Positions 42,398-64,000 of a DNA stretch of 64,000 nucleotides are shown one piece after another (position 1 is the first letter of the stretch; every line of letters begins with the position of its first letter). Below the pieces are notes generated by a model. That model searched no databases. It was not told where the DNA came from and saw nothing but the letters and a program-made list of their open reading frames with translations. The stretch covers positions 62,001-126,000 of the forward strand of contig DRGL01000015.1 in assembly GCA_011050085.1 (NCBI GenBank), in the 5' to 3' direction. Source of the DNA: Pricia antarctica (lineage in GTDB: Bacteria > Bacteroidota > Bacteroidia > Flavobacteriales > Flavobacteriaceae). The position numbers and the translations under genes were made by a program.

Positions 42398-45300
42398 AAT
42401 ATCGATGAACTCGATAAAGATATTGGCCGTAGCCTCGCATCCGTTTTCATCTACTACCCGAACAACATAGGTATCGGTTCGGTTGACCATGAAGGTATTG
42501 TCTTCACCATTGTTTACGTCTCCGAAATAAATGGTATAGTCATCCCGTCCCCCGTTTACGGTCGCCGTTAGTTCGTTAACGTTGCTCTGTGCAACGCTTA
42601 TGGTCAAAGGCTCATAATCTTCGGTTTCAAAACTATGGGTTACAATGCATCCGTTGGCATGTGATATGGCGATATAATGTGATCCGGGCAGGGTATCACG
42701 GAAGAACGGATTAAGCTGCATATCGGCTGGATCAGTAGAATCTAGAGCATAAAGCACATCATTGGCTATACTGTTGTCGTCTAGCACAATGTTGATGTAA
42801 TTGGTCGGACTATTATTCTCACAACCATATATCGTCTCTACCGTAGCATTGAGATTGACCCCTGCTTCGATAGTGACAACTATATTCTCGTCACACCCCA
42901 TGGCATCCCTTATAAATAGAATATAATCACCTGCCGCCAAATCGGATAGCACTGTTCTATCTTGAACAAAATTACTTTCGAAACTGAAACGGGTACTATA
43001 CGGTGCAGTACCTCCGGAAATCGTAAGGTCGATGGAGCCATTTTCCTCACCTGCGCACAGTTCGGGAAGTGCTGTAGCGGTTACTGCCAATACTTCTGGC
43101 TCGGTAATGGTATATTGCATCGTTATAAAACAACCGTTCCGGTCTTGAGCGATTATGGTATATGTTATGCCAGTGGGCGAACCAGCGAGATCTGTGAATA
43201 CGTTTTCATCGCTGAATTGGTTCAGGTTGGGCGAAATAGCATATTGATAAGGTCCAACACCTCCTTCTAGTTCCACAGTGATTGTGCCGTCACTGGAACC
43301 ATTACAGCTGACATCGGTGAAATTATTGGGGTCAAGCAAGGATAACGCGTCCGGCTCATTTATGACCACTCTTTGTGGCTGGGTAGTACAATCATCACTC
43401 AATACATTAACGTAATATGTTCCTGCCGATAGATTATCAAACGTTCCATCAGAAACAGGGCCTGCAATACGGTCTGCTGCGTTTAATTGCGTATAATCAA
43501 GACTGTTTTGGTTTGAACCTCGGTAGTTGTCGTAAAGTTCGAACCTATAATTCCCTAATCCTCCTGCGGCCCTGGCAAAAATTAGGGCCGTATTGTCCCC
43601 ATTACAGTTGATAACTGCCGCAGATGTGTCTAAGGTCAATGTCAATGGTATGATACTACTTTCCACAATGGTGTTCGAAGCTACTGCGGGGCAAGAATTA
43701 ACGGCATCCCTAACTTCATAGCGATAACTATCAGCATTAAAAACTCCGGTAGTTGGAAGAATGACACTGTTTCCGGTCATGGCTATCCAAGTTGAAGTGC
43801 CTACACGTCGGTATTCGTAAGAACCGCTTATACCTCCAGAGGCGGAAAGTTCAAGCTCAACCCCGGTAGTACAAGTCAACGGACTTGTACGGATCAAATC
43901 CGCTACCACTTCTGTCGGGTTTGTAATGTTTTCAATCGGTGTTTCAAAGCTACAGCCAAAGTCATCGCTAATGGTAATGCTATAGAAACCAGTATTAAGA
44001 TTATTGAACGTAGCCCCGGTTTGAATGACCGAAGTTCTTATCAGTGTTGTTCCGGATGCATCATTATAAACATTTAGACGATATCGATAGGTTGGCGAAA
44101 CGTTTCGTACGGTATTGACCGTTGCCGTTACACTGGCCGTATTTCCATTAAAACAGCTAAGTGGTGTTGCTGAAATGGTAGCCGCGATATCTTCTGGCCG
44201 TATCAAGGTAATCGAACTTGTTTCTACACAATTTTTGGTATCTGTTACCACAACGGTATAGTCACCAGCGGCCAAGTTTTGGAACACGAATCCCTCGACA
44301 TTAGTCTCGGTATACACTTGTGTTGTAGTGGTATTGTTCAATTCGATGGTATATGGCCCGTATCCGCCTGATGGGTCAATAAAAATGACGCCTTGGTCAT
44401 TGGTACAACTTGGGTTTTTCAGTTCGTTTTGAACAATAGTTATTGGAGTTGTCGGGGCAGAAATCGTAATAGTGTTTGATTTCTTTTCACATCGAGGCGC
44501 ATCAGTTTGTATAATATTTACATAGTAACTACCACCTACAAGGTCGTTCACAGTAAAGGATGCTGCCGTATTTCCGGTTATCAAAGCTGAAACAGGAGTG
44601 TCATTACTATCGAACACTTGATAATCATAGCTGCCCGTATATCTATCGATTGTAACCTCAAAACGTCCACCAGAGGTCGCATCGTTCAAACATTCCTCAT
44701 CGGCAAGTTTGGTAGCGCTGACGAGCATAATTTTGGGGTCTGCAACCGAATGCACTGTATCAATTCGACAACCGGTATCCAAATTCGTGATTGCTATCGC
44801 ATAATTCCCAACGCCAAGACCAGTAAATACACCGGTGTTATTGGTCTGGTTGTAAGTTACATTGATTCCGGAAATAACATACTCCAAGTTCGGCGTAGCA
44901 AACGCTGGAACAACGGTTACGGATACTGTTATATTTTCATCGAACGTAGCACAACTTACAGGTTGATCAACATTTACAACTGCATCGCTGATACTTACAA
45001 ATGGCGCAATACTTGTAGTGGTAGAGCTCATACAGCCCTTGCTATCATAGATGTTTATGGTATAATTGCCACCCGCAAGATTTGTTTCGGTATACGATGA
45101 GTTTGAACCGTTCTGAACGGTTATCGCATCACCTACTGCAACCGTTGCCGGATTATCGTTGTTGATGAACTCGTAACGTACATATATCCCTGAACCTCCT
45201 GTTACTCCAATAATATCAATAATCGGATAGTCGGTTTTATTGCCTGTAGTACAGCTGAAGGTTACAGGTGCGGGTGCAGGAACGCTAACAGCCGACGCCG

Positions 45301-48300: not shown

Positions 48301-51300
48301 CAGTTGCATTTATGGCATTGCTCGGGCCGGCGATAGTAAAGAAATCCATGGCCGTACAACTCGGATCCGAACTTTGCGTGATATCTACACGATAGCTGCC
48401 GGCAGGAAGTGCAAACGGTACAGTTGGTCCAACGTTGGACGAAACAAGTGGTGTTGTGGTAATTATTGTGTCATCGCCTAAAGCTAGTGTACCTTGAGAA
48501 TTATATACCTGCCACGTAAAACCTCCGCTATAGGGTTTTACAGGGTTATTTATTTCAAAAACTACCGTTCCATTGTCTCCAAAACAAACAACATCTGTAG
48601 TGGTGCTCGTAATTTCAAAAGTATTCGGATCTTTGATTTCAAAAACGGTCTCGACGATACATCCGGTATCATGGTTCGTTATTCTTCCTATATAATTTCC
48701 GACTCCTAAGCCCATGAATAGATCAGATGCCTGATTCGGTGCGTTGTACGCATTATTTGTGCCCTGAACGGAATAGGAAAGGTCAGGGGTAGCGCTCGAT
48801 GGGGAAACGGTAACCGCAAGAGTGACTTCGGCGTCGTCTCCAGGTGCGCAGGTGACATCACGAGTAATAGTAGATGTCGGATTGCTTATTTCTGTATAAG
48901 TAGCTATAGTCGCTGTAGTTGTACCAATACAGCCTTTATCATCATATACGTTTATGGTATAGTTGCCACCAATGATGTTGGTTTCTGTATAGGAGTCATT
49001 CGTACCGTTTTGTACGACAATGGCATCGCCTATTGCAGGGCTAGTTGGGTCATCGTCATTGATGAACTCATAGCGTACGAAAGTACCAGAGCCTCCGCTT
49101 GCGCCGGAAATGGTGATAGTGGCATTTCTAGGACTGTTCCCTGTGGTACAGTTAAATTCTACGACCGTTGGAGCCGGTACGGTAATAATCGTAGGCTCAG
49201 AAATTACGATTCCGAAAATATCGGTGAAACAATCATTGTTTCCTGTCCCCCTTAGGTCATAAGTGCCAGCAGGAAGGTTTTCGAAAACGGTTCCATTCAA
49301 GACGGCGCTCGCGGGCATAGGAGTTAAAGTATAGGTTAATGGATTAATGCCGTTATTCGTTTCCGATACGGTTATACTACCATCGGCACCACCGTTACAG
49401 GTCACATCAGTATGGACTTCGCTAAATTCCGGAAGAACCGCATCAGGCACATCGATTATAATCGATTTTACACAGTTCGGAGGACTCGTGCTGATATCAT
49501 AAATATTTACATTATATGCTCCGGCAGCACTTGCGTTTGGCCAAGCATGAGGGTTAGAGGGCAATGCGGCTCTGGGTTCGTCCACGGATCCCGGGCCGTC
49601 GATTTCATACTCGTAATTTCCCGATCCCGAAGTTACTTCGATAGTAATTTCTGCATAACCCGCCGAGCCTATTTCACAATCCAACAAAGCAGTTTGTCGT
49701 ATCGTAAACTGTAATGGCGGTTGAATATCGAAAGTCTCCATGTCGGAACATCCGTTCAGATCACGTATTTCTATGGTCTGCCCCAATCCGGAGCTTAGTC
49801 CACTTACTGTATACTCATTACTTCCATTAAAGGTGATATTTTGGAACGCTCCTCCGTTCAAACTGATTTGATAAGGCGATATTCCAACGGCATCCAAAGA
49901 AACCAACACTTCAAAATTACCTTCGTTGACACATTCGTCAACAATGGATAGTGAAATATCCGGCGTTGGGTCGAGGGCTACAGTTACCGTATCTGATTGG
50001 ATACAATCGTTGGCATCCTTAACGTAGACGATATAATCACCAGATTCTACATTTGCGAAAGAAGTTACTACCCACCCTACAGAGGAAGCGGTCGGCGCAG
50101 GTTCCGTGTCCAACAAATATTGGAACTCATATGGCGCGGTACCGAATTGTGCACGTGCGTCAATTGCTCCGGCATCCACATTACAGTTATCATTTTTAGG
50201 GGATGATGCGGTAATGGCCAATACGTTGGAAGATTCGATAATCGTAAAATCGGGACTACTAATAGAACAGCCATTATTGGTTCCACCAATTTCTTTGAAT
50301 AGGATGTAATATACCCCTTGCGTCAACGTCCCAAAGTTGGTGATGGAAATCGCTCCAGTAGGAGGGTTAACGGTAGCGCTACCATTAAAACCGACCGGGA
50401 CGTTCGATTGGGCATTGAAAATTTCATATTCAACACTGGTAGCTAACACATCATAATTTTCGAATGTAAAACTTACGTTACCGTCTGCGGCTCCCTTACA
50501 GGTTACATTGGATACAACATCTAAACTTGCAGTCATCTTTGACGGCGAATTTATAGGCGTCGCAGCTGTTTCAAAATAATAACAGTTAGTGGTAATGTCA
50601 TGTACTACAAAAGTATAAGTGATACCAGGGGTAAGACCTGTAAAAATTGTTGTATCGCCACCAGGAGTAGATGCTGGTTGGTACGTAGATGAATATGGAC
50701 TTGAATAGGTTTCCAAAGTTGCAAATTCATAATTGCCACTACCGACTGTCGATGATACGGTTACTGTCGCCATACCGCCTGTCGTACAGTCCATGGTCAA
50801 TGCACTGACATCGATATCAAGATCATCTGGCGGTGACGCGATGATGTTGGTAGTACGTGCCGAACAACCGTTGGCATCCACAACATCAACCTCATAAATA
50901 CCGAATTCTAAAATAGCGAAGGTATGATCCTCTCCTCCTGCCGTAGTAACGTAAGTATCTGAATAACCGTTGTTACCGGTAAGGTGATAGGTATATTCCG
51001 CAGTTCCTCCGCCTAAATTTTCAACAGTAATGGATCCTGGATCCGTTCCAGAGGATGCATTACATGTGATCGGCACTAAATCCACATTATAAGTGATAGC
51101 GTTCGGTTCGGTAATGGATATTGGGTAAGGTACTGAAGTACATCCCTTGTCATCGGTAACCCGCACTTCATAGTCCCCTGCAGGAAGGCCTGAGGTTTGC
51201 GTACCATAGTTTGTAGAGGTATTGGTCTCGATAATCTCGATCGTATATCTTGGGTTTCCGATTCCTGTATCGATAACGACATTCAAAGAGCCTGTCATAT

Positions 51301-54300
51301 CACCGTTACAAAAGATATTTGTAGCAGAAATGGAGGTAATTATAGGAAGTTCCGCTGGAGTTACCATAACGGGCGATGTTATAACTGTACAAACGGTAGG
51401 GGCACTAGTATCGGTAACCCGGAAAATATATGTGCCATCCGTGGTCGTACTGAAAACGTTACCCGTAAAATTCGTTGTAGCGTACGTAGATCCATTGTCG
51501 TCTGACCATTCGTAGCTATAGGTTCCTGAACCGCCGTTGGCATTCACAGTGACCTCACCGGGGGCTATACAGGTCAAGTCAGGGTCAAGAACCGCATTTG
51601 CGGTCAGTTGCGGTGCTATAGTTACGGGTATTGCCGTTCCGATACAACCAAATCCGTCTTTTACGTTTACGGTATAGGAACCGTTCGATAGATTCTGAAA
51701 ATTATATGAAGTAGCTGTTGAAGGGCTAGGCGTTAACCAAGGACCACCGTTCAAGCTAAATTGATAGCCTCCGTTACCAGAGGTAACAATAAGCTGAATC
51801 GCCGCATCATTATTTCCGGAATAACAAGCGGTCGGAGTAACATCGAATGTTGGGTTTGCCGGTGCCGCAACTACGATGGCCGCATCGATAAGGTCATCGC
51901 AGCCATTGGCATCAAGTCCACGAACGAAATAGGTGCCATCAGTAACAATGGTGAAGGTGTTATTGTTTTGGTAGGGTCGTATGACCGCACCTACATTGTC
52001 CTCGAGTCGGTATTGATAAGTAGGTGTACCCCCACTAATGGAAGCAGTGAGTGTTGCACCGCCATTGTCACACGTATATGCTGTAGTGATATTGGCTGTC
52101 GTTACCAGTGCGGCAGGTTGCGAGATGACTGCATCAAAAGGAATCGAGCATGAGGTACTTAATACATCTCGAACCACAAGATTCACTGTTCCTGCCGAAA
52201 GACCTGAAACGGTCACAGTAGCGGAAGTTTCTGGACCAGTGAAGCTAGTACCGTTATCAATGGAATATTCAAACCCATTTACAGGATCGAAATTTGTAAC
52301 CATAAAAGTAGCTGTACCATCTGAAAGTCCGTTACAGCTTACATTCGTTGAACCTGTGAGTGTTGCCGTGAAAGTATGGCCAGGCTCGACAATCACATCT
52401 GTATCAACAGTACAGCTTTTGCCATAATCTACTGTTATGGTGTGGGTGCCTACGGCAACATTATTAAAAACATTGGATGCCTGTACAGTTCCGCCATCGA
52501 TACTGTAGGTATACGTCGAATCGTTTGGTGATACGGTGATATTTCCTGTCCCGTCGCAATTGAAGTCCGTTGAGGTGATCAACGTTGGTTCTGTGGGCAG
52601 GGTGTCGATAATCACCGTTGTTGGTATGGTATACACACAATTGATGGCATTCGCATCGCGAACTTCTATTATGTACGAATCATCATCTAGATCAGTAAAG
52701 GCAATGCCGCCCGTGGTCGAAACTGACCAAGCGCCTCCATTTATGCGATACTGATAATTGCCAGAACCACCTGTTGTGGCGATTACGCTGCCCACAGTAA
52801 TCTCACCAAGCTCGAGACAGGTATAGTCCTTAGTAATTTCCGCCTCCGCTACGATGGAATCCGGTTCCGTAATCGTTATTGGCAATGTCGAATCACAACC
52901 ACTTGCATCCCGTACACGTACCACATAATCAGCGCCTGCCAGCAGGTTTTGGAAGGATGTATTTATCTGGTAGGCAACCAATATAGTTGATGATGTGTTC
53001 TCCAATTGGTATTGATACGGTGCGTTGCCACCAGTTATTGCTACATCGATGGCCCCTGTAGATGCTCCGTTACAGGTTACATCGGTAACCGTTGGCATAA
53101 TGACAATCTGAGGACTTTGAATTATGGTAATATCGGTTACTTCTTCGCAAAACGGTACCGTTCCAGAGTTGTCCCGAACATACACATCGTAATCTCCCGC
53201 TGTTTGTGCTACGGGGTTGCTGTTCGAGAAATCGGTTGCTGTTGGCGTGGCCCCATCTGCAACAACGGCATAAACGTAATTACCATCACCGCCAGTGGCC
53301 GCAATAATAATATCTGTAGTTGTTGCGCAGGCCGTAATGTTGGCGGCGGTTGCGGAAACTGTGATTTCGGGCTCGATAATGTGTTGAATAGGTGTTCCTT
53401 CACATCCATACGCATCTTTTACGTTTACATTGTATGTTCCTGACCCAAGAGCAGTAAAGGTATAGGTGGTCGCGGAGCTTGGCGATGGCGCAATCCATGG
53501 CCCACCGTTGATGTTGAACTGATACGAACCGTTTCCATCAGTGACATTGATAGTAATCTCAGCATCGGCATTTCCGGAATAACAATCAGTTTCAATAGTC
53601 GTAAATGCAACGGTATCTGGGGCGCCCACCGTAATCGGAACGGTCGTTTCACAGGAATTGATATCCCGCACCCGAATTATATAGTCACCCGGGGTAAGGC
53701 CGGTAAAGGTGTCTGAAGTCTGAAACGCTTGTAGTACTATAGGAGTTGCGGAGGTATCTTCCAATTGATAGGAGTATGCGGGCGTTCCTCCGGTCGGTGT
53801 TGCTTTGATTGTAGCATCATCCAAACAAGTACTTGGTGAGATGATGGTAGCTGTCGCCGTTAGAGTGTTCGGTTCTGAAAGGTTTGGCGATATGGTCACG
53901 CTACAGGTGGAATCGGCCACATCACGTATCGTGATATTGGTTGTACCGGCACTTAGACCCGTTAATGTTAAGGGAGATGTAGTTTCAGGTCCGATAAAAG
54001 TGGCGCCGTCCGTAGTATATTCGTATCCGGTCGTCGTGTTGAAGTTTTCTACATCAAAGGTAACAGAGCCGTCGGATGCGCCATTACAGCTTATGTTCGT
54101 AGTAGCGGTAATATTGGCTTCCAATGCCCTTCCGGCTTCTACTAGCACATCAACCGATACTTCGGCAGGGCATTTTGCAGGTGGCTGTGTAGCCAATAGA
54201 TCATCAATAGCAAGGTCGTTACCGTTGATTACGGCAGAATTGGTTCTGATAACTATATCAAGGTTTGGATTACTACCGGGATTGAGGTCTACAGAGTAGT

Positions 54301-57300
54301 TTCTCCAGTCATTAGGGCCGGAGTTTTTAGGAACAAAGCCAGTAGTTGTACTTGCAATAATAGTTCCACTGGGATCTACCAGTTGAATTTCAAAAGAGGG
54401 ATCTCCACCAGATGTGCCCTGGCGCAAAAGGTTCATTGCCCATAAGGAAATGGAAATATCTTGATTCTGCAATACTTCAATGTTCCTTTTGGCATAAACG
54501 ATTCCACCGACGCCAGCGACGCCACCTACATTTATAGCCAGATAGCGGCCATCTGTGTTTCCGGTATGGTCATTAGGGCTTATCCAGGTACCATATATAT
54601 TGGTCAGTCTATTCGTAACCACATATTCACCATCCTGTAGATTGGGATTTGTTCCAAAGGCAGGGCATGATTCTGTTCCGTCTTGGGGCTCATAGCAATA
54701 TACCGGGTCAATTTCCGTGATCGGCGTATTGTTACCAAAACCGAAGTCTTCCGTTAATAACGTGCTAGGCGGAATTACAGTAGTAATTACGTAGTTCACG
54801 GTAACAATATGGGTACCGGCTGAAACATCCGTGAAAACGTTGGAATCCGCAGGTGTGTTTAGTACATTATCAATTTCATAGGTATAGTCGTATAACGGAT
54901 CGTCAGGATTGACCGTGATGGTTGCATCACCGTCACAGAAATAATCGAGGCTGGTCGTTACGCCCGGCGGGGTCTGAGCTGGTAGCACGGTAAGATCCAT
55001 AGGAAGCGAACAATTGTTTGCATCTCTTACGAATACGGTGTAATCTCCTGGGAATAGATTTGAAATATTACTGGCTTGGTAGGTAGCTCCTCCATCAAAA
55101 CTATATGCATATGGCGCAGAACCTCCCCGGGCATTTACAATACGGACCTCTGCCCCCATCGAAGGATTACATTCGATAAGTTCGGCGACCAATGCCGATG
55201 CCGATAAGGTAAACGGTTCGGAAATAGTATGAACCTGCGAAATTTCACAGGAGCTGCTGTCCTGTACCCGTATATTATAGCTACCTGCCGGAAGATTCGG
55301 AAAGGTGTTGGTTGTTTGATAGGTAAAACCATCGTTAATACTATAACGATACGCAGTGCTCCCCCCGGTAGCATCAATGGTTATGGTAGATTGTGAAGTG
55401 CCGCTACATAGAACCGGAGTGCTGGTTACCGTAACCGCCAATGGATCATCTTTGCTGATATTGAGGTCGTAAACTGCCTCACAGAAATTGGTCCCTCCGT
55501 TTTTGTCCCTTGCATAGACGTCATAATCGCCGATAGCTGATATCGTTCGGGTAGTGGCAGCACTAAAGTCACTTGGACTGGGGGTTGCTCCATCAGCAAC
55601 TATAGCATATACAAAGCTATTGTCCCCACCCGCAGCAATTAAAGTTGCCTCGGTAGTGTTGCTACATTCCGGAATTGGGGGTGCCGATGCTGAAACGGTT
55701 ACAGCGGGTGAAATTACGCTAGTCTGCGTTCCAGCGGTACAGCCAAATTGATCTTGTACATTAATAGTGTAAGAACCTGAACCTAAATTGTCGAAAACAT
55801 ACGAGTTCGGCGTAGCCGAATCAGGAGATTCAAAGGGATTGCCGTTAATACTGAATAAAAGTCCGCCGTTGCCGCCAGACACTGTTACTGTAATAGTTGC
55901 ATCGTTGGCGCCTGAATAACACTGTGTAGCTACAGTGGTGTATGTGAAAGTTGCTGGAGCCGTGATATTTATAGGGGTGTCGATTTCATCGTCGCAGCCG
56001 TTATTATCAAGCACTCTTACAATGTAACTGCCATCGGTGACATTAGTAAACGTCGTTTCAGGCTGATAGGTTCTTATGACACCGCCGGATGTATCTTCCA
56101 ATCTATACTGATAGGGAGCTATTCCATCATTCGCGCTGGCCGTTATTGTAGCACCGGTATTATTACAGGTCCAAGCTGTGGTAATCGCTGCCGAAGCAAC
56201 TACAGCCGCAGGCTCGGTGATGGTTCTATCGATACTCACACTACATGACGGTTCGTCTACTTTTCTTAGGATAAACGTATAAGCTCCCGGACTTAATGGT
56301 GTAGCCGTAGTAACGGGTGATACGGTTGAAGTTGTAAAAGTAGTACCACCATCGGTAGAGTATTCAAAACCGGAGGAAGTATTAAAATTAGTCGCTGTAA
56401 AGGTTACGCTGGCATCGTTTTCGCCGTTACAACTTGCATTTGTAGTACTTGTTATGTTTGCCTCAAATCGGTTTCCCGCTACAACAGTTACTGGAGTTGA
56501 TACAGTTTTAACACAGACTTCAGGAGTCTGAAAAATTTGTATGTCGTCGATGGCGACATCGTTACCGCTGTTGCCCACCTTTTCGGTTCTGACCACGAAG
56601 TCTAAGGTGGTGTTGCTTCCGGGATTTAAGTTGGCGGTAAATTGGTGCCAGTCATTGGCGTTTTGGTTTTTAGGAATGTCGCCTGTTCGTATTGATTGTA
56701 CGATGGCATCCGTGCCGGGATTTCTGATTTCTATAGTTAGGTCAGGGTCAAGTTGGTTGCCACTACGAAGAAGATTGAACAACCATAATTCTATACTAAT
56801 CGGCCGGTTTGGAATAATATCGTTGATGGCCTTTCGATAAATAATCTGGCCTGGGCTGGGCGTACCGACATTAATGACCAAAAAACGGCCATCGGTACCG
56901 GATGGGTTCGTATGGTCGTTGGGGTTCCGCCAAGCGCCAAATGGGTTTACTATTCTTGGTGTCACCGCATATTCGTAATCGTTGATTTGATTGTCGGTGT
57001 CGTTCGGTCTTCCGCCCGGTATCGTATTAGAAGTCTGGTCTTCATAAAAATAGCCAGATGTGTTCGGGTTGGAAATGGTTACACCGGTGCCAAAATCTTC
57101 CAACAAAAGTATACTAGGCGTTGGAGGGGTTTGCGAAATATAATTTGTACTTACCGTATAGGTGCCAGGTTCAACATCTGAGAAAATATTGCTAGTTGGG
57201 TCTGGCGAATTTGTTATTCCGTCCAAAGCAAACGTATAATCGTAAGTGGTGATGTCCGGGGTGGCGGTGACTACAGCGTTCCCATCACATAAATAACTTA

Positions 57301-60300
57301 CTTCAGGGGTAAGCACTACGGTTGGAGGCACGGGTTCATTGACCACGGTAATATCCATAGGAAAAGAACAACCTACATCATCACGCACGATAACGATATA
57401 GTCGCCCGGTGGCAAAATAGCCACTGTACTCGTTCCGTAATTTGCTCCGCCGTCGAAGCTGTACTCATATGGTGAGGTACCGCCCACAATATTTGTAATG
57501 CGTACCTCGGCACCATTGGGGTCACAGGTTGCATCCCTCGAAACACCGGCAGAGGCGGATAACGGGAAAGGTTGGGTAATGGTATATGATTGTGTAAGCT
57601 CGCATCCCGAAGCATCCGTTACCCGAAGGTTATAAGTGCCTGCCATTAGGTTTGGAAACGTATTGGTCGATTGGGTAGTGGCACCATCATCAATACTGTA
57701 TACGAAAGGCCCGATTCCTCCGGAGGTCCCTATATTAAGGGTCGATGAATTTGAACCGCTACATACGATGGGCGTATTTGAAGGTGTAATGGTCATTGGC
57801 CCGTTGTCCATAATGGTAACTTCATTTGAAAAAGCGAAGCAGTTGTTCGAATCAACGATTACAAAAGAATAAGTGCCATCTTCCCCTACTATATATTCGT
57901 CGATTCCGTCACTGTCGGTATCTCTCCACCCAAAGGAAAAAACAGGGTTCGTATCATATGCGTCACCGGGTATGGAGGCAACATCAGGGTATAAATTTGT
58001 TCCGTTTTTGCTCCAAATAGCAAACGAGTAATCAGGATTCGGAAAACCGTTGCTTCCAGTAAGTTCAATGGTGCCGGCCGTACAGCCAATATCCTTTGTG
58101 GTCAGTGCTGAAATAGTGGGGTCTAAAATTCTTGTTACGGTTACGTTTTCGTCGTAAGAACATCCATCATCCGTAGAAACTTCGACAATATAATTCCCGG
58201 GGTTTACATTGAAAGAATAGGTGTTGTCTGGTTGGGCTGTTTCTTCGTCAATCAATGTGCCATCGGGCCTTTTTAGAATATAGGTATAGTTTGGCCTAAC
58301 GTTTAAAACATCTATTTGTAATATACCTTGCGCATTACAATTAGCAGGAGTGGTAGTAATGTCAACCTGAAAATCCCGATCGCGAATACCAATGGGATCA
58401 GTGCTAAAGATACAGGCGCCAGGAATAGCATTGCCAGCACCGTCTAATTGAACCACCTCGACCCGGTAAGATCCATTTTGGCCTGAGGAGAAATCAAAAA
58501 TGGGCCCGTTTCCAGCGGTAAAGGGTATTAGAATACTGTTGTTTGCATGATCAATCAGCTGATACCCATATCCACTGCCTAGATTTGTAATGCGAATTTG
58601 TCCATCACTAGAACAAATTATATCTCTATTGTTATACAGAATTTCAAGATTATTTTGAAAAACATCAAAATAAAAGCGGCTGAAACAACCATTTGTATAG
58701 TTAATCACCAAACGAAATTTTCCGGCCGTATTGGCGGTGTAATTATTTCCTGTTGCTACTGAATTCCACGAACAACTCAAATTTTTGTTGCCACAATCAT
58801 CCGAGGAGCCCGTACAGCTACTTTCATCCAGCTTTTCCCAAGTAAGGCTTTGGGCATCTGTTATATTTATTTGAAGCGGTTGTGTATCAGTGGCACCGCA
58901 AAGAAAAATCTTTGGCAAAAGGTCTCCATCGACACTACAGGTTACGATTTCGCCTTGAATATCGTTAATGGGGTCGGCATCGCCATTTAACATATTAAAA
59001 TAGTCAACCAATGGGTTGGTCTGTGTAGCCCCAAAGCGTTCGACCGTGATGATTTCCTTAAAGCCTTTACAAGGGTCGGCTACAATTTTATCAACAATAT
59101 AAGTGCCAATGTCAGTTACCATTAATGTAGATGGGTCTCCATCGGGATCACCATCATTCTGAACCGGATCAGAGGCATCAATCTCGCCATTTGAATTTGC
59201 ATCCAAAACCCATATATACGAGTCAAAGTTATCCCCCGCGTTCAAAACAACGTCATCTCCACAAAGTTGAACGGTTCTGTCGAACGTACAATCTGAAAGA
59301 TCGTCCAACAAAAAGTTTGTGGCACCAGGCGTTACAAAACCACAATTATCAAAATCGGATACACTTGGATCATCTGTGATCTCATTATCGTTGATTACCC
59401 CTTGATATGTAGAATAGGCTATGTTTTCAATAAGGTCGCTACAAGCGTTTACGAAATCAAAGCAGTTGCTAGCCACATTGACCCTCATCCTGATAGTAGA
59501 AGCTGGCCTTCCCATTCTAACCAAAGAGTTCGGTATGGAAAAAACCACTAACCCTGCGGCTTCATCATAAACATAAGTCACTCCTGCCGGCAATGTGAGA
59601 TTGGTTTCGTCTAAAAAAACATTGACAGGTAATACATCCCTTATTATATAGCTGTCACCATCGTCATTACCAGTATTCCTGAAAGTAAGCACGTAGTCCA
59701 AGGTTTGCCCAAGGTTTACCCCTTGTCCTGTGATATCATTGCCGGCAATGTCTTCTACCCTCTTTTCAAGGACAATATTCGGTTCAATGATTTCTACGTT
59801 GAAAGAATTAAAAAAAGGATAATATTGATCTCCCCGCGATTCGAATCGAAATGTTGCCGCAGTTTCGGCATTGGGTATAACAGAATTCGTTGGGTTGTTT
59901 AGTCGAAAGATATCGGTGTCATAGCCTAGGGTATTTCTACTGTTGGGTGTTCTATTTGTAGTAAGTGCCCCATTAAGAGTAATATTGCTATTAAAAAAAT
60001 TGTCCGCTGGATTGGTAGCGTTGCTCATAGTTGTAAAGCCGCCATTACTTGCAGCACTTATAAGCATGCGGTCTCCACTTATCCTAAAATCTCCTTCTAG
60101 GGCTGCCGCTCCGATATTGGCACGTACCGGACCGGAAGGAACAGTGTTAAAGCCGGTGTAGTCTACATCAAGTCGACGATCTGAACCTGAATCCCTAACC
60201 CGGGCAAAACCATCGAAAGTAGTAATCAATTTACCGCTTAGGGTGGGGTTTTCGTAGACAATGACTAAAGTCCAACCTGCCGCCGCACCACCTCCTGGGG

Positions 60301-60949
60301 AAAGTGGTCCGGTGACCGAACGCACATTGGCAATAGTATAGTTCCCCTCAGGATTCGCTAATGGGGTGATTAAATTGGTGATATCTGCATAACAGGCGTA
60401 GGGACTATTCTGTAGCATTGCTGTTTCGGTACTCGTGAAACCGTCGTAAAGAATTTCGTCGGCGGTAACGTCGATATAAGAACCGCCGGGAACCTTTAAT
60501 TTTACCTGATTAAAGTCGTTTTGTCTACCCGTTCCCAAGTTTTGTCCAGCTCTTGCGCTCGGATAGGTTGCCGACCAATATAAACCGGCGTATCGTATTA
60601 AATTACAGTCTGGTTCTGGGTAGCTAAAGGTTGCGGTACTGGAACTGAATGTGGAGGTATCTCCGTCCACATCGATGTACTGCATGCTTTTAAAATCATT
60701 ATAATTGTTATTGCCACCGGTCTCTGTGTTGTTGTTATTGGAAGTGCTAATATTATCGTAGGCAGCATTAGGCCCAGTGGTTGCTGTACCTCCGTCCCTA
60801 TTCAAAATGTTGTTCGAAATAAAAGTCAGGTCACCCTTGATGTTGTTTTGGTATCGAACATCGAAGTCGTTATATTCTTGTGAAAATCCTTGAAAAGCTA
60901 GGATAAATAGGCTTCCCAAGAATATTTTTTTAATGAAATTTTGTTTCAT
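42134..60949 (-). CDS. Giant SprB-like surface adhesin (6,271 aa) with gliding-type T9SS C-terminal domain
   Basis: ATG 60949 opens one uninterrupted frame of 6,271 codons. A signal peptide (MKQNFIKKIFLGSLFILAFQ, cleavage near GFSQ) is followed by an N-terminal region of about 850 residues. That region includes a DUF11-like domain near 389-500 (NIVLEKRVEDIAG). About 50 SprB-type repeats of 80-100 residues follow. They have the pattern C-x-G-x-x-D/N-G, GG-x-x-P-Y-x-Y, L-x-x-G-x-Y and D-x-x-G-C, so each repeat carries two cysteines. The last 88 residues are the gliding motility-associated C-terminal domain (IPNFFSPNGDSENQYWKP, FDRYGREVY, GDYWYIIKL). Type IX secretion to the surface is therefore expected, with a role in gliding or attachment as for SprB. 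The start codon directly abuts the stop of the preceding PorP/SprF gene. Confidence 0.95.
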   Translation of the reverse strand: MKQNFIKKIFLGSLFILAFQGFSQEYNDFDVRYQNNIKGDLTFISNNILNRDGGTATTGPNAAYDNISTSNNNNTETGGNNNYNDFKSMQYIDVDGDTSTFSSSTATFSYPEPDCNLIRYAGLYWSATYPSARAGQNLGTGRQNDFNQVKLKVPGGSYIDVTADEILYDGFTSTETAMLQNSPYACYADITNLITPLANPEGNYTIANVRSVTGPLSPGGGAAAGWTLVIVYENPTLSGKLITTFDGFARVRDSGSDRRLDVDYTGFNTVPSGPVRANIGAAALEGDFRISGDRMLISAASNGGFTTMSNATNPADNFFNSNITLNGALTTNRTPNSRNTLGYDTDIFRLNNPTNSVIPNAETAATFRFESRGDQYYPFFNSFNVEIIEPNIVLEKRVEDIAGNDITGQGVNLGQTLDYVLTFRNTGNDDGDSYIIRDVLPVNVFLDETNLTLPAGVTYVYDEAAGLVVFSIPNSLVRMGRPASTIRMRVNVASNCFDFVNACSDLIENIAYSTYQGVINDNEITDDPSVSDFDNCGFVTPGATNFLLDDLSDCTFDRTVQLCGDDVVLNAGDNFDSYIWVLDANSNGEIDASDPVQNDGDPDGDPSTLMVTDIGTYIVDKIVADPCKGFKEIITVERFGATQTNPLVDYFNMLNGDADPINDIQGEIVTCSVDGDLLPKIFLCGATDTQPLQINITDAQSLTWEKLDESSCTGSSDDCGNKNLSCSWNSVATGNNYTANTAGKFRLVINYTNGCFSRFYFDVFQNNLEILYNNRDIICSSDGQIRITNLGSGYGYQLIDHANNSILIPFTAGNGPIFDFSSGQNGSYRVEVVQLDGAGNAIPGACIFSTDPIGIRDRDFQVDITTTPANCNAQGILQIDVLNVRPNYTYILKRPDGTLIDEETAQPDNTYSFNVNPGNYIVEVSTDDGCSYDENVTVTRILDPTISALTTKDIGCTAGTIELTGSNGFPNPDYSFAIWSKNGTNLYPDVASIPGDAYDTNPVFSFGWRDTDSDGIDEYIVGEDGTYSFVIVDSNNCFAFSNEVTIMDNGPMTITPSNTPIVCSGSNSSTLNIGTSGGIGPFVYSIDDGATTQSTNTFPNLMAGTYNLRVTDASGCELTQSYTITQPFPLSASAGVSRDATCDPNGAEVRITNIVGGTSPYEYSFDGGANYGTSTVAILPPGDYIVIVRDDVGCSFPMDITVVNEPVPPTVVLTPEVSYLCDGNAVVTATPDITTYDYTFALDGITNSPDPTSNIFSDVEPGTYTVSTNYISQTPPTPSILLLEDFGTGVTISNPNTSGYFYEDQTSNTIPGGRPNDTDNQINDYEYAVTPRIVNPFGAWRNPNDHTNPSGTDGRFLVINVGTPSPGQIIYRKAINDIIPNRPISIELWLFNLLRSGNQLDPDLTIEIRNPGTDAIVQSIRTGDIPKNQNANDWHQFTANLNPGSNTTLDFVVRTEKVGNSGNDVAIDDIQIFQTPEVCVKTVSTPVTVVAGNRFEANITSTTNASCNGENDASVTFTATNFNTSSGFEYSTDGGTTFTTSTVSPVTTATPLSPGAYTFILRKVDEPSCSVSIDRTITEPAAVVASAAITTAWTCNNTGATITASANDGIAPYQYRLEDTSGGVIRTYQPETTFTNVTDGSYIVRVLDNNGCDDEIDTPINITAPATFTYTTVATQCYSGANDATITVTVSGGNGGLLFSINGNPFESPDSATPNSYVFDNLGSGSYTINVQDQFGCTAGTQTSVISPAVTVSASAPPIPECSNTTEATLIAAGGDNSFVYAIVADGATPSPSDFSAATTRTISAIGDYDVYARDKNGGTNFCEAVYDLNISKDDPLAVTVTSTPVLCSGTSQSTITIDATGGSTAYRYSINDGFTYQTTNTFPNLPAGSYNIRVQDSSSCEISQVHTISEPFTLSASALVAELIECNPSMGAEVRIVNARGGSAPYAYSFDGGATYQASNISNLFPGDYTVFVRDANNCSLPMDLTVLPAQTPPGVTTSLDYFCDGDATITVNPDDPLYDYTYEIDNVLNTPADSNVFTDVSAGTHIVTVNYVITTVIPPSTLLTEDFGFGNNTPITEIDPVYCYEPQDGTESCPAFGTNPNLQDGEYVVTNRLTNIYGTWISPNDHTGNTDGRYLAINVGGVAGVGGIVYAKRNIEVLQNQDISISLWAMNLLRQGTSGGDPSFEIQLVDPSGTIIASTTTGFVPKNSGPNDWRNYSVDLNPGSNPNLDIVIRTNSAVINGNDLAIDDLLATQPPAKCPAEVSVDVLVEAGRALEANITATTNISCNGASDGSVTFDVENFNTTTGYEYTTDGATFIGPETTSPLTLTGLSAGTTNITIRDVADSTCSVTISPNLSEPNTLTATATIISPSTCLDDATIKATPTGGTPAYSYQLEDTSATPIVLQAFQTSDTFTGLTPGDYIIRVRDINSCETTVPITVGAPDTVAFTTIETDCYSGNADAEITINVTDGNGSYQFNINGGPWIAPSPSSATTYTFTALGSGTYNVNVKDAYGCEGTPIQHIIEPEITVSATAANITACATTTDIIIAATGGDGNYVYAVVADGATPTATDFSNSNPVAQTAGDYDVYVRDNSGTVPFCEEVTDITIIQSPQIVIMPTVTDVTCNGASTGAIDVAITGGNAPYQYQLENTSSTILVAYQINTSFQNLLAGADYVVRVRDASGCDSTLPITITEPDSIVAEAEITKDYTCLELGEITVGSVIATTGGSGNYQYRINGGAWSVSTTGGIAFTDLDDDSYIIEVRDANAINCVYTIPTTVIIDTLPTEPTLITSTDFNCDGTGNITVSPNDSTYTYSIDGGTVQASNVFNNVAVGTHTITVDYGKSCTVDTDVIVEPGHTFTATLTGSTNVSCNGLSDGTATFMVTNFDPVNGFEYSIDNGTSFTGPETSATVTVSGLSAGTVNLVVRDVLSTSCSIPFDAVISQPAALVTTANITTAYTCDNGGATLTASISGGTPTYQYRLEDNVGAVIRPYQNNNTFTIVTDGTYFVRGLDANGCDDLIDAAIVVAAPANPTFDVTPTACYSGNNDAAIQLIVTSGNGGYQFSLNGGPWLTPSPSTATSYNFQNLSNGSYTVNVKDGFGCIGTAIPVTIAPQLTANAVLDPDLTCIAPGEVTVNANGGSGTYSYEWSDDNGSTYATTNFTGNVFSTTTDGTYIFRVTDTSAPTVCTVITSPVMVTPAELPIITSISATNIFCNGDMTGSLNVVIDTGIGNPRYTIEIIETNTSTNYGTQTSGLPAGDYEVRVTDDKGCTSVPYPISITEPNAITYNVDLVPITCNASSGTDPGSITVENLGGGTAEYTYHLTGNNGYSDTYVTTAGGEDHTFAILEFGIYEVDVVDANGCSARTTNIIASPPDDLDIDVSALTMDCTTGGMATVTVSSTVGSGNYEFATLETYSSPYSSTYQPASTPGGDTTIFTGLTPGITYTFVVHDITTNCYYFETAATPINSPSKMTASLDVVSNVTCKGAADGNVSFTFENYDVLATSVEYEIFNAQSNVPVGFNGSATVNPPTGAISITNFGTLTQGVYYILFKEIGGTNNGCSISSPDFTIIESSNVLAITASSPKNDNCNVDAGAIDARAQFGTAPYEFQYLLDTEPAPTASSVGWVVTSFANVESGDYIVYVKDANDCIQSDTVTVALDPTPDISLSIVDECVNEGNFEVLVSLDAVGISPYQISLNGGAFQNITFNGSNEYTVSGLSSGLGQTIEIRDLNGCSDMETFDIQPPLQFTIRQTALLDCEIGSAGYAEITIEVTSGSGNYEYEIDGPGSVDEPRAALPSNPHAWPNASAAGAYNVNIYDISTSPPNCVKSIIIDVPDAVLPEFSEVHTDVTCNGGADGSITVSETNNGINPLTYTLTPMPASAVLNGTVFENLPAGTYDLRGTGNNDCFTDIFGIVISEPTIITVPAPTVVEFNCTTGNSPRNATITISGASGGSGTFVRYEFINDDDPTSPAIGDAIVVQNGTNDSYTETNIIGGNYTINVYDDKGCIGTTTATIATYTEISNPTSTITRDVTCAPGDDAEVTLAVTVSPSSATPDLSYSVQGTNNAYNAPNQASDLFMGLGVGNYIGRITNHDTGCIVETVFEIKDPNTFEITSTTTDVVCFGDNGTVVFEINNPVKPYSGGFTWQVYNSQGTLALGDDTIITTTPLVSSNVGPTVPFALPAGSYRVDITQSSDPSCTAMDFFTIAGPSNAINATVDKTDVTCALNDGTITISNVSGGWADYTYYVADATAPAPTDNSGFVTTTSFSNLSGGVTGTDYQVWVSDAKGCLAQFANVNLIDPTAISADLRVNVANCDNIEGVLEVFNVAGGQGSNYTYQLQQFNGTTFVNTRSAQNTTIFNGLGEGRYQVVINDQWTCTFTTAEQVLYDEIKPLATVVKAIDCDVVSPGGEITVTQSGGSGNFVYTVAFPDGTTPQPSNTTGVFASLTEVGVYTFTITDQAAGHECAKTITQELFPRVEPVLQIDTFTNVTCIGDNDGTITVSTTDNGISPYTFEITAATGGSLTLPYAPSIATNLSATFTGLEGSATGITYTITGRGDNNCTTEITQTITQPDAIIADAPIVVQFGCTSGNNPNNASIEITGANGGSNNFVTYEFINNDDPTTTTGPADPIQVYKGSNSKYIETNAMGGTYTINVYDDKGCVGTQTATINTYDELLSASAAITNFISCSPGNDGEITVSVISTNSDASKFEYSIDNGATYQTSNVFPNLGIGTHNFLVRHLDTGCITTTSERLLDPNTFTIDITKISDVVCFGTATGEITLELVDATYPGGFDWEIFNTNGTPANTGDDTSVSIGTEASNGPTAGITLPAGAFYVIISQNNAPTCENMENFTISGPTAAITGDTYKTDVTCALNDGSIEVIDVLGGWGGYSYFVDIATNPAPADASVFQNSPLFENLSGSATGTDYQIWVTDSNGCLQQLPNVNLIDPTPISADLQVNVENCTNFEGEIQVVNVLGGQGSNYSYQLQRFNTGTSAFENLRALQVSTIFGGLGAGQYQVLVSDQWNCTNTTSFSVNLYEEIMPLATVVKPIDCTTDPGGQITITQTGGSSGNFTYTVVFPDSSTPQPSNTTGIFNNLTQEGEYTFTITDDQSCSKTIRKSLQPQVDPILSVDSFTDVVCFGDANGTISVSVLDNGVGPYTFQITDRDGGVVTINPTSSTNTSAEFTGLAQTTTSAGYTITATGSNDCQAMTTQTIDQPASAVSVPAPAPVTFSCTTGNKTDYPIIDIIGVTGGSGIYVRYEFINNDNPATVAVGDAITVQNGSNSSYTETNLAGGNYTINIYDSKGCMSSTTTSIAPFVSISDAVVNVDQPVSCATFDENITVSVTVVPAFATPNLEYVISGINVTYNQTNNTGVFTGLGVGNYAIAITNLDTGCRIDTVHSVADPKIMLVSATKLADEECLNDATSGGRFEVTIDRYTGSYDYQVFDSNDTPVSALITGNTAASFTVNDLVGGSYYVNIIQTDAPRCEKKSNTITISAPTTPITIVQNELKNPSCTNDQGVIFIDPSGGYGPYTIELNNTTTTQVYTETNVEGFVFQNLAAGDYTVVVTDTKNCVETSSITLIRPEDIAATISATPLSCFNGNTASVTATVNTVRNVSPTYRYRLNVYNDASGTTLIRTSVIQTGATFNNLNTGFYSITISDDFGCSFETPIENITNPTEVVADLIRTSPLTCTTGVELELSASGGISGSYEYRRVGTSTWIAMTGNSVILPTTGVFNADSYRYEVRDAVNSCPAVASNTIVESSIIPLTLTLDTSAAVINCNGDNTALIFARAAGGLGNYRFELYDNYRGSNQNSLDYTQLNAADRIAGPVSDGTFDNLSAGTYYVNVLSDDCTTQPQRVVINEPDALSLLDPNNFTDVSCNGSSDGTITVELEGGVGPYQYAISPNLNQFSDENVFTDLAGSPTGITYTIIAQDRNGCFITMQYTITEPEVLAVTATALPELCAGEENGSIDLTISGGTAPYSTRFSFESNFVQDRTVLSDLAAGDYILFIRDAMGCDENIVVTIEAGVNLNATVETIYGCENNSPTNYINIVLDDNSIANDVLYALDSTDPADMQLNPFFRDTLPGSHYIAISHANGCIVTHSFETEDYEPLTISVAQSNVNELTATVNGGRDDYTIYFGDVNNGEDNTFMVNRTDTYVVRVVDENGCEATANIFIEFIDIEIPNFFSPNGDSENQYWKPRNDEGFPQILTIIFDRYGREVYRMRQGDRGWDGFYQQTALPTGDYWYIIKLKGENDDREFVGHFTLYR
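44460..45550 (-). repeat. Partial third copy of super-block B in the adhesin
   Basis: The first four of seven sub-repeats of block B recur here, each closing at N-D-C, D-S-K-G-C, D-T-G-C or P-R-C. The order then breaks and unrelated SprB repeats follow. Boundaries are approximate. Confidence 0.7.
45551..47490 (-). repeat. Super-block B, copy 2 (seven SprB sub-repeats)
   Basis: A unit of about 1,940 bases begins at VTCIGDNDGTITVS and ends at QPQVDPILSVDSFT. Its seven sub-repeats correspond one to one with those of copy 1, including the CVGTQTATI, CALNDGSIEV and NVNLIDPTPISADL landmarks. Boundaries are approximate. Confidence 0.8.
47491..49412 (-). repeat. Super-block B, copy 1 (seven SprB sub-repeats)
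   Basis: A unit of about 1,920 bases begins at VTCNGGADGSITVS and ends at FPRVEPVLQIDTFT. Landmarks shared with copy 2 include CIGTTTATI, CALNDGTITI, NVNLIDPTAISADL and TTPQPSNTTGVF. Confidence 0.8.
51370..53110 (-). repeat. Super-block A, copy 3, without inserted domain
   Basis: It corresponds clearly to copies 1 and 2 from sub-repeat 3 to 6 (FNCDGTGNITVSPNDSTY, CNGLSDGTATF, CDNGGATLTAS, CYSGNNDAAI). Sub-repeats 1, 2 and 7 are more diverged. The domain found inside sub-repeat 3 of the other copies is absent: the junction runs directly from HTITVDYG to KSCTVDTDVIVEPG. Confidence 0.7.
53111..55442 (-). repeat. Super-block A, copy 2 (seven sub-repeats plus inserted domain)
   Basis: A unit of about 2,330 bases begins at TPVLCSGTSQSTITI and ends at PFCEEVTDITI. 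It matches copy 1 sub-repeat by sub-repeat. Boundaries are approximate. Confidence 0.8.
54165..54775 (-). other. Inserted jelly-roll-like domain, copy 2
   Basis: About 200 residues (roughly 2059-2262) run from STLLTEDFGFGNN to DLAIDDLLATQPP. They contain PNDHTGNTDGRYLAINVGG, ISLWAMNLLRQG and a closing N-D-L-A-I-D-D. The pattern resembles a MAM/CBM-like beta sandwich, with the conserved acidic end (AIDD) typical of such folds. It interrupts sub-repeat 3 of block A. Confidence 0.6.
55443..57795 (-). repeat. Super-block A, copy 1 (seven sub-repeats plus inserted domain)
   Basis: A unit of about 2,350 bases begins at TPIVCSGSNSSTLNI and ends at NFCEAVYDLNI. It closely parallels copy 2, including the NTFPNLMAGTYNLRV and YAYSF/YEYSFDGGA landmarks. 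Boundaries are approximate. Confidence 0.8.
56510..57125 (-). other. Inserted jelly-roll-like domain, copy 1
   Basis: About 200 residues (roughly 1276-1480) run from SILLLEDFGTGVT to DVAIDDIQIFQTP. Landmarks shared with copy 2 are PNDHTNPSGTDGRFLVINVG, ISIELWLFNLLRSG and the AIDD end. It may bind a glycan or another ligand; that is inference from the fold-like pattern only. Confidence 0.6.
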
Positions 60950-63223
60950 TTAAGCAAGCTGGTTTGGTCTAACCCGCATAATCCACATTTTTTCGGAATA
61001 CGAGTCGTTTAGGTTGGTATAGTAAGACAGCAAGGCACTGTTCCAAGAGGCGTGTTTTTTCAAGTATACATACCTCCAGTTGTTTTCGGGATTTATAAAG
61101 TATCCAGCGCTCAGGCCATACGAATTCAATTGCTTTACAAAACGGTTGGCATTTTTTGGGTTCGCGAATACATTGGCAATGATATAATAGCCCGATCCGA
61201 TACCCTCGATTTGAAAGGTTTTGGCTGAAAGCTCTTTGTCCGCCACTTGGTCTTTCACGATGACATTCTGCTGAAGGGCATCGTTGCTGTATTTTGCTGA
61301 TTTTGTCTTGAGCTTATCGACATTGCTTGCGTAGGCCTCGTTGCTATATCGATTGTCGACGTTCATAATCCATAGATTATTGTTGTAGGCCCCGTTCATT
61401 CCGGATTTGTGGGCATCGAGTGCTTCTTGCCACGTATCATAGCGTTCTAGATAGACGTATTTTAGTCCGTTTTCGGGGTTGTCGATGTAGTCGGGATTAA
61501 AGCCTTGGTTGGCCATTTCGTTGATGAACTTTTCCATGTACTTGCCACCCTTGTAAACGTTGGCTACGACATAGTATCCATCTTTGGTGCCTTCAAGGTT
61601 TCTGAATTTTCTCCCTTTTACGCTGCTACGTTTTGCGGTCGCTGCGAAGTCATCTTTTTCTACGATGTTCTGGGTGTTGTCTTTTGCGGATGTAGGGCGT
61701 GTTTTACTAGCGTAATTTCCTGTTGCGTTAGGGTTGCGTCGTTCAGTTGTTAGAGTATTTATGGTAACTGCATCTTTGTTTTGCTCTGCGATTTCATTGG
61801 TTCTGGAAATATCGTTAAGACCGTTTTCGGCAAGGTCTTTCCGGTTGCTGCCTGGTCGCTCGTTCCTATTTTGGGCAATAGCGATATTATTGCCGTTTGG
61901 AGCACCCGTACCGGTCGTTATATTCTGGTCTTTTCCGTTAGAATTGTATGCTACAGATGAGCCATCCTCTTTTCCTAAAAAGAGATTTTCAGCACGTTTT
62001 TCTAGGTCGGGACGTTCGCCGTTGGTCTGGTTGCGTACCATGCTCATGACCATATCGAAACGACGTTCCAAATCTTTTTGGCGTCCGTTTTCGAGGGAAT
62101 CTTGACGAAACATCAATTCTTGGATGATGGCATCGTTCTCCGCAAGCTTCCTTTTCAGTTCCGCAATTTCTTCGTTTGCAGCTAAATCACCAGTTTTAGT
62201 TTCTTCGTCATTTTCTACTAAACTATCGTCATAATCATCCTCTAACATGACCCGGTCTTCGGTAAGGTTCGGTGTAAAGGAGAAGGCAAAGGATATTTCA
62301 TGGGTCACGCCCAAATTGTTGAAATCGTTGGAAAATCCCTTTTCCATAGTATATCCTAAGGATAATCTCCTGTTGATATTGAAGCCTGCTCCAGCAGATG
62401 CGCCATAGAAACTATCATAACCTCCCTGTAGCCAACCTAATTTAGGAAGGTCGAGAATCATACCGCCACCATAGGAAATTTCTTGTGATACTTCGGCATC
62501 CGAAACACTTCGATTTTGGCCGTTCATTCGAACTCTGGCCAAAGGCATTAGGCGGCTTCCTTCTAGTATACCGTCTCCGTTCTGAAAGGGATAGGTATAT
62601 TGTAAATGGCTTGAATAGGTCTTATTTCCGAATGCGGTCAAAGATGTACTCGTCTTTAAATTATAATCGAAGAGGTTTTCGGCAAAAACACCGAAATCGA
62701 ATTTTCCAAAGGAAATGTTGAAACCAGGCTGAAATGAAAGAACATTACTGTCTTCTAAACCATTTAAACGGAAATCGTTGTTATCAATTACGTCGACGCT
62801 ATTACGGTCTAGTCCGGTGCTGTAGTAAGCCAGGTTACCGCCAAATGTGAAATTACTTTTGTCGCTTAGTTTTACGCCATAGGCATAATTTGCCAATACA
62901 CCGATATTAGAAACCGGTCCTAGTTTTTGAGTATACGCACTTAACCCCAATCCGCTTCTATCACCCACTCTACCGCTGTAACTTAGGAAATAGGTTTGAT
63001 CGTTGTCCTGAAACTGTACCGATTGGTTTCGGTGCAGTAAGTTAACATACGACTTGTCTTCCTGAACTGTAGAGAACGTCGGATTTATCAAAAACCGATT
63101 AAATTTCAGTAGGTTTTGAGATTGCGGACTATATAGTAAAATAGGGTCGTCTTCTTGTGCCCGAACATTGGTAAATGCCAAAACAGCAATAAGCGCTAAT
63201 GCGATATGTTTCACAAATTTCAT
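60950..63223 (-). CDS. PorP/SprF-family T9SS protein with two C-terminal SPOR-like repeats
   Basis: The 757-residue protein has a signal peptide (MKFVKHIALALIAVLAFTNVRAQ). Its N-terminal PorP/SprF barrel (about 25-320) contains LLKFNRFLINPTFS and YGVKLSDKSNFTFGGNLAYY. An acidic and coiled-coil segment follows (about 325-400, EEIAELKRKLAENDAIIQEL), then a long Asn-rich linker. Two related repeats of about 75 residues close the protein (starting GYYVVANVYKGGKYM and GYYIIANVFANPKNA, each ending in LWIMNV or MWIMRV). They resemble SPOR peptidoglycan-binding domains. The family normally has only the barrel of about 300 residues. The layout suggests an outer-membrane SprF that also reaches the cell wall. 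It lies 6 bases after a cargo gene and abuts the giant adhesin gene. Confidence 0.9.
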   Translation of the reverse strand: MKFVKHIALALIAVLAFTNVRAQEDDPILLYSPQSQNLLKFNRFLINPTFSTVQEDKSYVNLLHRNQSVQFQDNDQTYFLSYSGRVGDRSGLGLSAYTQKLGPVSNIGVLANYAYGVKLSDKSNFTFGGNLAYYSTGLDRNSVDVIDNNDFRLNGLEDSNVLSFQPGFNISFGKFDFGVFAENLFDYNLKTSTSLTAFGNKTYSSHLQYTYPFQNGDGILEGSRLMPLARVRMNGQNRSVSDAEVSQEISYGGGMILDLPKLGWLQGGYDSFYGASAGAGFNINRRLSLGYTMEKGFSNDFNNLGVTHEISFAFSFTPNLTEDRVMLEDDYDDSLVENDEETKTGDLAANEEIAELKRKLAENDAIIQELMFRQDSLENGRQKDLERRFDMVMSMVRNQTNGERPDLEKRAENLFLGKEDGSSVAYNSNGKDQNITTGTGAPNGNNIAIAQNRNERPGSNRKDLAENGLNDISRTNEIAEQNKDAVTINTLTTERRNPNATGNYASKTRPTSAKDNTQNIVEKDDFAATAKRSSVKGRKFRNLEGTKDGYYVVANVYKGGKYMEKFINEMANQGFNPDYIDNPENGLKYVYLERYDTWQEALDAHKSGMNGAYNNNLWIMNVDNRYSNEAYASNVDKLKTKSAKYSNDALQQNVIVKDQVADKELSAKTFQIEGIGSGYYIIANVFANPKNANRFVKQLNSYGLSAGYFINPENNWRYVYLKKHASWNSALLSYYTNLNDSYSEKMWIMRVRPNQLA

Positions 63224-63229
63224 TTTGGG

Positions 63230-64000
63230 TTATCTAATGACGGTTATGGTACCTTGCTTTAGGGTTTCCGTAGCATTCTTGATAACGTAATAGAATACTT
63301 GGTTTTGTGCATTGAAAGCGGTTGAAGACTCCGGCCAATTGTTCTGGTAATTTGTGTTATTTAATACCTCTACACCTTTGGCATTATAAATAGTTACCCT
63401 AACATCTGATTTGTTCGAATAGGAATTTGGAATTACCCATTGATCGTTCGATCCATCGCCATTCGGAGTTATTACGTTTGGAATGTTGAATAGGTCGAGA
63501 TAGGTAACTTCAATCGATTTGCTTATTTCACAGTTATCGATATTGGCAATTAGCACATAATTACCTTCCTCTGTAAAGGTCACGGACGGGCCAGTTGCGA
63601 TTTCGACGCTGTTGGCATTTAACCATCGGTATGCAGTACCGCCGTTGGCATTAACTGTTTTGGAACTTCCTTCAGGGAAGATTACGTCTCCGTCAATGTC
63701 TAACGTAATTAGGTTTGGATCTAATGGGGCAATGGTGATTTCATTAGAGGTTAGCGGACAAATTCCTTTTTCAACTACCAATCGGTATGTGCCCGGTTGA
63801 GTTGCTATTAATTCAATTTCCGTATTGTTAACGGTAGTACCATTTCTTTCCCATACAAAATCCTCTCCTGTCAAATTTGTCGTTGAACTCAAAACGATAC
63901 TATCTGAAGCACTGCAATACACTGTGCTTGTACTTGTAATGGTCAGAGTTTCGTTAGTTCCTAATTGAACAGGTAGCGAGTTAGAGGTGGCGTTAAAACT
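63230..64000 (-). CDS. T9SS cargo protein with gliding-type C-terminal domain, 5' end outside window
   Basis: The frame is open from the window edge to the stop at 63230, giving at least 256 residues. A GTG at 63922 is internal, not the start. The visible part shows Ig/PKD-like repeats (CSASDSIVLSSTTN, TQPGTYRLVVEKGICPL, TEEGNYVLIANIDNCEI). It ends in a gliding motility-associated C-terminal domain: NIPNVITPNGDGSNDQWVIP, IYNAKGVEVL and VFYYVIKNATETLKQGTITV. It is therefore probably exported by the type IX system to the surface. The next gene, six bases downstream, encodes a PorP/SprF protein, its likely secretion partner. The true N-terminus and size are unknown. Confidence 0.9.
   Translation of the reverse strand, partial: SFNATSNSLPVQLGTNETLTITSTSTVYCSASDSIVLSSTTNLTGEDFVWERNGTTVNNTEIELIATQPGTYRLVVEKGICPLTSNEITIAPLDPNLITLDIDGDVIFPEGSSKTVNANGGTAYRWLNANSVEIATGPSVTFTEEGNYVLIANIDNCEISKSIEVTYLDLFNIPNVITPNGDGSNDQWVIPNSYSNKSDVRVTIYNAKGVEVLNNTNYQNNWPESSTAFNAQNQVFYYVIKNATETLKQGTITVIR

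Follow-up and report, generated by a model that had tools for sequence, protein, structure and literature searches.

The window analysed here (the whole 64-kb stretch of Pricia antarctica DNA) carries on its minus strand a gene for a giant protein built from long series of repeated units, and the question that this locus raises is how such a protein is arranged and by what route it has grown. The genes in and around this locus are listed below.

63230..64000 (-), end of a CHU_C protein encoded upstream, probably SprC, truncated at the window edge
60950..63223 (-), sprD-like gene with PorP_SprF and SPOR
42134..60949 (-), sprB, predicted giant gliding adhesin; ORF of 6271 aa with PF13573 and CHU_C matches
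42170..42400 (-), T9SS type B C-terminal signal (CHU_C, PF13585; E 7.8e-17)
41161..42114 (-), sprF, PorP/SprF family

SprB is the giant surface protein used by gliding bacteria to grip surfaces. The order sprD-sprB-sprF is the same in relatives, and the 6271-aa ORF contains many copies of the SprB repeat (PF13573) above cut-off, together with a CHU_C match of 61.6 bits against a cut-off of 27. The C-terminal tail of the window's SprF reads ...GLSNCRCTY, with two cysteines, and two conserved cysteines in this tail are a described motif (PMC12635249). By operon, domains and partner, the predicted 6271-aa protein is the gliding adhesin SprB. It resembles Flavobacterium johnsoniae SprB (6497 aa) in gene order, type B CHU_C domain, SprB repeats and giant size, and the F. 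johnsoniae SprF has the same two-cysteine tail. The genome also encodes a SprB-like paralogue of 2976 aa (L114; G000:C43:16917-29045) with ~28 units and no adjoining sprF. Three short tandem repeats lie elsewhere in the window (7281-7346, 20353-20402 and 38506-38537).

Fifty-six units, each starting with a cysteine, make up the repetitive part of SprB, in the arrangement N3 + A21 + M5 + B21 + C6, with two domains inserted within units of the A blocks.

57773..58624 (-), units N1-N3, base of the left arm; in the same place in relatives and conserved
55418..57772 (-), block A1, seven units
56516..57124 (-), insert domain 1 (INS1), in A1.3 = unit 6; predicted CBM4/CBM22/MAM-like jelly roll
53084..55417 (-), block A2, seven units
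54173..54778 (-), insert domain 2 (INS2), in A2.3 = unit 13
51320..53083 (-), block A3, seven units without an insert; clearly homologous to A1/A2 only in units 3-6
49943..51319 (-), central module M1-M5, putative fibre tip, from the mirror centre of arm counts and co-evolution
50510..50797 (-), unit M3, putative turn, from the co-evolution sum peak at -2, centred on M3
50195..50509 (-), unit M4, counting anchor, located by profile search
48017..49942 (-), block B1, seven units
46076..48016 (-), block B2, seven units
44165..46075 (-), block B3, seven units
42593..44164 (-), right-arm base, units C1-C6

The first-pass annotation had described seven sub-repeats recurring three times with a period of about 2,340 bases in what is here block A, and had predicted a self-comparison off-diagonal of about 780 residues. 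Self-BLASTP of SprB in 400-aa fragments yielded this off-diagonal between A1 and A2 (785, 786 and 782 residues; E 1e-84 to 1e-100). Between A2 and A3 the offset dropped from 778 residues before the insert to 584 after it, as expected if A3 is without an insert of ~200 residues, and the A1-A3 off-diagonals stood at 1560 and 1365 residues. Each of the three copies comprises seven Cys-started units, with periods of 2355 and 2334 bases. When the units were compared one at a time, A1 and A2 matched in all seven positions (46-59% identity), whereas A3 is clearly homologous to them only in units 3-6: A3.2 and A3.7 are at background, and A3.1, whose match to A1/A2 is weak, is nearer to A2.5 and A1.5 than to A1.1. 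The threefold recurrence therefore holds in full for A1 and A2, and is clear in only the four middle units of A3. The domain described inside sub-repeat 3 of the first two copies was found in A1.3 and A2.3, and A3.3 joins the flanks directly, as had been noted.

Growth by duplication of blocks, which the same annotation had proposed, is borne out by the spacing of similarity among SprBs with at least 20 units per arm, in which units seven apart share 41.5% identity on the left and 38.0% on the right; each of the other spacings tested gave 23-29%. A search for DNA repeats in the window with a 14-base seed and a 60-base minimum returned no family, so the window's own block copies are old. Block B (44165-49942) is a second seven-unit block in three copies, at offsets of 636-654 residues, lying across the central module from A; the first-pass annotation had not described this parallel tripling. 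We rejected the idea that A and B are one block in different phase, as no phase stands out, and likewise the idea that the unit total is a simple multiple of seven, since totals of 22 and 48 occur while the matching of the arms holds. In two congeners and the sister genera SprB has 42 units, with A and B present twice each, and hence within the genus each arm varies in length by seven units.

The relation between the two arms was followed in about 138 long SprB-like ORFs belonging to one family, 112 of which are SprF-linked and were used for the rule. Units were marked by profile and cysteine pattern, M4 was found with its own profile, and units were counted to its left and right; in all proteins, a pre-domain that carries an FLCG motif was kept out of the unit counts. 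The right arm equals the left arm plus one in 103/112 SprF-linked SprBs automatically, and in 107/112 after four hand corrections, which concerned one extra inserted domain and three near-tied or weak M4 anchor scores, in proteins that have 42 units each. The matched states are 10/11, 13/14, 20/21, 23/24, 27/28 and 34/35, the last of these occurring in the longest SprB counted (6854 aa). The window's SprB is in the 27/28 state, and a congener in 20/21. When the right counts were shuffled, 47% matched on average and 62% at most, as compared with the observed 96%. On a tree built from N- and C-terminal regions, left-arm length has undergone at least 27 changes, and in phylogenetically independent pairs on supported branches the arms agreed in 6/6, 10/10 and about 8/9 cases and were never opposite. 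Among 49 proteins counted after the rule had been written down, 43 fit outright and 46 after correction. In a sprF-less paralogue family of 4100-4300 aa (L044, L045, L047, L051, L062, L063, L069-L071 and others) the arms are likewise 13/14, unit 6 holds an insert, and the mirror centre is again M3.

Five SprBs break the rule (L105 13/17, L078j 13/20, L129 27/19, L130 25/18 and L138 27/21), as do the divergent relative L100j (34/10) and L109, which is without a complete end and counts 13 and at least 17. In L105, L078j and L109 the right arm has extra units, apparently of ~80 aa, near the C-terminal base. The changes in L129, L130 and L138 are one-sided, with an odd-length unit in L129 (117 aa) and L130 (110 aa), and assembly collapse is a possible cause.

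Recent events in the family are also paired. Four SprBs (L042, L048, L145 and L146j) carry copies at a seven-unit shift with 97-100% DNA identity, in both arms and at mirror positions, the duplicated runs being as follows.

L042, left -21..-9, right 8..20
L048, left -18..-5, right 5..16
L145, left -18..-5, right 4..16
L146j, left -27..-16, right 15..25

A left run alone was seen in two proteins and a right run alone in none (Fisher p 2e-6, with the tree ignored), and the congeners of L042 and L146j are in a shorter matched state. The duplications of L048 and L145 share their location and may not be independent, which leaves three sure lineages; the high identity in these two proteins possibly reflects recent gene-conversion homogenisation of older copies. 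Neutral unequal crossing-over in a linear repeat adhesin, with blocks A and B unrelated, would produce both block repeats and recent near-identical copies such as exist here, and it is also in keeping with the one-sided differences in L129, L130 and L138. However, the excess of matched arms over shuffled ones, and the fact that the recent duplications come in mirror-placed pairs, leave this explanation strongly disfavoured, and we hold it to be very improbable.

The mirror relation extends to sequence divergence. Patterns of between-species identity were obtained for each unit, the common tree component was removed, and the remainder was compared across opposite arms. In the 20/21 class (77 proteins), the best register had an offset sum of -2, which is mirrored about M3; the 13/14 class also gave -2 and the 27/28 class -2/-3, and the paralogues without sprF peaked on M3 as well. 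The register also holds in the three subclades of the 20/21 class, apart from one that has its peak at 0 and -2 in second place (p 0.04). The mirror signal has p ~0.001 against shuffled right arms and persists after correction for unit rate. In the short paralogues (2.8-3.0 thousand residues), represented by six sequences only, no significant mirror centre was obtained. A reduced residue coupling analysis of 78 tip sequences gave nearly the same register, weakly, at an offset sum of -1, and a tip kernel test on 113 sequences peaked, also weakly, at -3 to -1 with a z of 2.7, just short of the 2.77 set by its own null. When three principal components were removed, the mirror signal was gone, which points to a shared history of large segments rather than to proven residue contacts.

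That few large components carry the mirror signal is also what would be expected if central cassettes were swapped between species by recombination, with matched arms co-travelling without physical pairing. Unit M2 of the window is in line with such exchange: it is 87-89% identical to M2 of L048, L049 and L059 and has no match in the sister genera L031, L032 and L039, despite base units that match there at 57-84%. This distribution suggests that the tip module M1-M5 has been exchanged between lineages, the window's version differing from that of the sister genera. Cassette exchange by itself nevertheless leaves unexplained why every class is matched, why breakpoints would be mirror-symmetric and why fresh duplications are paired, and as a full account of the arms we consider it unlikely.

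The inserted domains follow the same seven-unit period. Counting from the N-terminal end, every one of the 74 inserts found (74/74) falls within unit 6 or unit 13, which is one phase of seven. An AF2 model of insert 1 (47 sequences; pLDDT 92.8, pTM 0.80) compared best in fold with CBM4-2 (Z 14.6) and the MAM region of meprin beta (Z 14.5), at low identity to CBM4/CBM22/MAM structures (7-17% among the matches listed). Curated profiles gave 18.7 bits for MAM, below the Pfam cut-off of 26.4, and no CBM family match. As modelled, the inserts are CBM4/CBM22/MAM-like jelly rolls; they have their fold in common with CBM4/CBM22 modules and MAM domains, from which they differ in being nested inside a SprB unit and in their low identity. 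They would probably be lateral ligand-binding decorations that occupy a single phase of the seven-unit step, with sugar binding predicted from the modelled fold. The SprB of L040 has a second, unrelated inserted domain (residues ~1771-2059) in unit 7 of its first A block.

The first-pass annotation had offered two histories for the insert, gain before the duplication of A1 and A2 or loss from A3, and had proposed a comparison with orthologues. In that comparison block number varies, and a single insert, located in unit 6, occurs in the two congeners and in the sister genera. INS1 falls among the inserts in unit 6 of Pricia, Zobellia and relatives, INS2 among those in unit 13 of other genera, and A2.1-A2.3 match the INS2-related genera better than the window's sister genera. 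The two inserts are thus old, separate positional lineages and A2 did not arise by recent copying of A1, so that the choice offered was too narrow. Judging by these sequence affinities, A2 with its insert may either have been kept from an ancestor and lost in the sisters, or have been acquired. An insert occupies A3's insert position in other species, indicating that its presence is labile, and the window's strain by itself does not give the direction of change.

Given matched arms, a seven-unit quantum, mirror duplications and mirror-shared history, the simplest explanation is that SprB folds back at M3 into a two-arm antiparallel fibre, a reading to which we assign a probability of roughly 0.7. 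The chain would reverse direction at M3, the central M module would form the tip, and the N-terminal arm (N1-N3 and A) would run antiparallel alongside the C-terminal arm (B and the C units), placing both ends of SprB near the cell. Seven units would constitute one register step of the two-arm fibre, which we infer to be helical, and with such a step a duplication in one arm would require a counterpart at the mirror position in its partner. The SprB filament is reported to measure ~150 nm for ~6500 aa (PMC13104615, PMC4094633); if a unit is assumed to span roughly 4 nm, this length fits a folded fibre more closely than an extended chain. An AF2 model of the tip (pLDDT 86.7, pTM 0.57 only) is compatible with fold-back at M3 and leaves the arrangement unsettled. 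We found no description of SprB as folding back in the literature covered, which consisted mostly of open-access journal papers.

Matched arms could also reflect pairing between molecules, in an antiparallel dimer or in a bundle resembling GhpA, the grappling hook of Aureispira sp. CCB-QB1 (PDB 9flp and others). GhpA is the best PDB match by sequence profile and by fold, and is likewise a giant protein of tandem beta-sandwich units. As the closest solved relative, it has 56 chains in 8 entries, an average of seven per entry, and matched arms would be compatible with an antiparallel dimer too. SprB is, however, anchored by its C-terminal signal via SprF (PMC12635249, PMC12618676), so that on one cell both anchors lie on the same side and an antiparallel dimer is disfavoured, and a parallel bundle has no need for matched arms. 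GhpA itself differs in having been solved as a multichain assembly whose overall arrangement is not superposable (TM 0.22), with matched arms not evidenced here. Intermolecular pairing is accordingly, in our judgement, quite unlikely.

Comparison with other adhesins places the folded fibre in a broader setting. We know of no matched arms in the RTX giant adhesins of the LapA type, which are similar in having a long extender of beta-sandwich repeats and a variable length. For F. johnsoniae SprB, matched arms, the seven-unit quantum and jelly-roll inserts are undescribed in the literature found. RTX giant adhesins extend linearly away from the cell, according to an excerpt of one source (PMC7493085). 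Beyond the window, we think it probable, somewhat less firmly than fold-back at M3 itself, that SprB-type T9SS adhesins in general would be fold-back fibres whose length evolves by paired mirror duplications of seven units (one register step, more rarely three); the turn would hold a variable module, and binding domains would sit at one phase of seven.

A fold-back fibre would help to explain the length of ~150 nm reported for a SprB chain of ~6500 residues. If true, fold-back at M3 would put the variable tip where contact happens. The arm-matching rule, usually in sevens, can be applied to any new genome, and paired mirror duplications within one gene would represent an unusual mode of protein growth.
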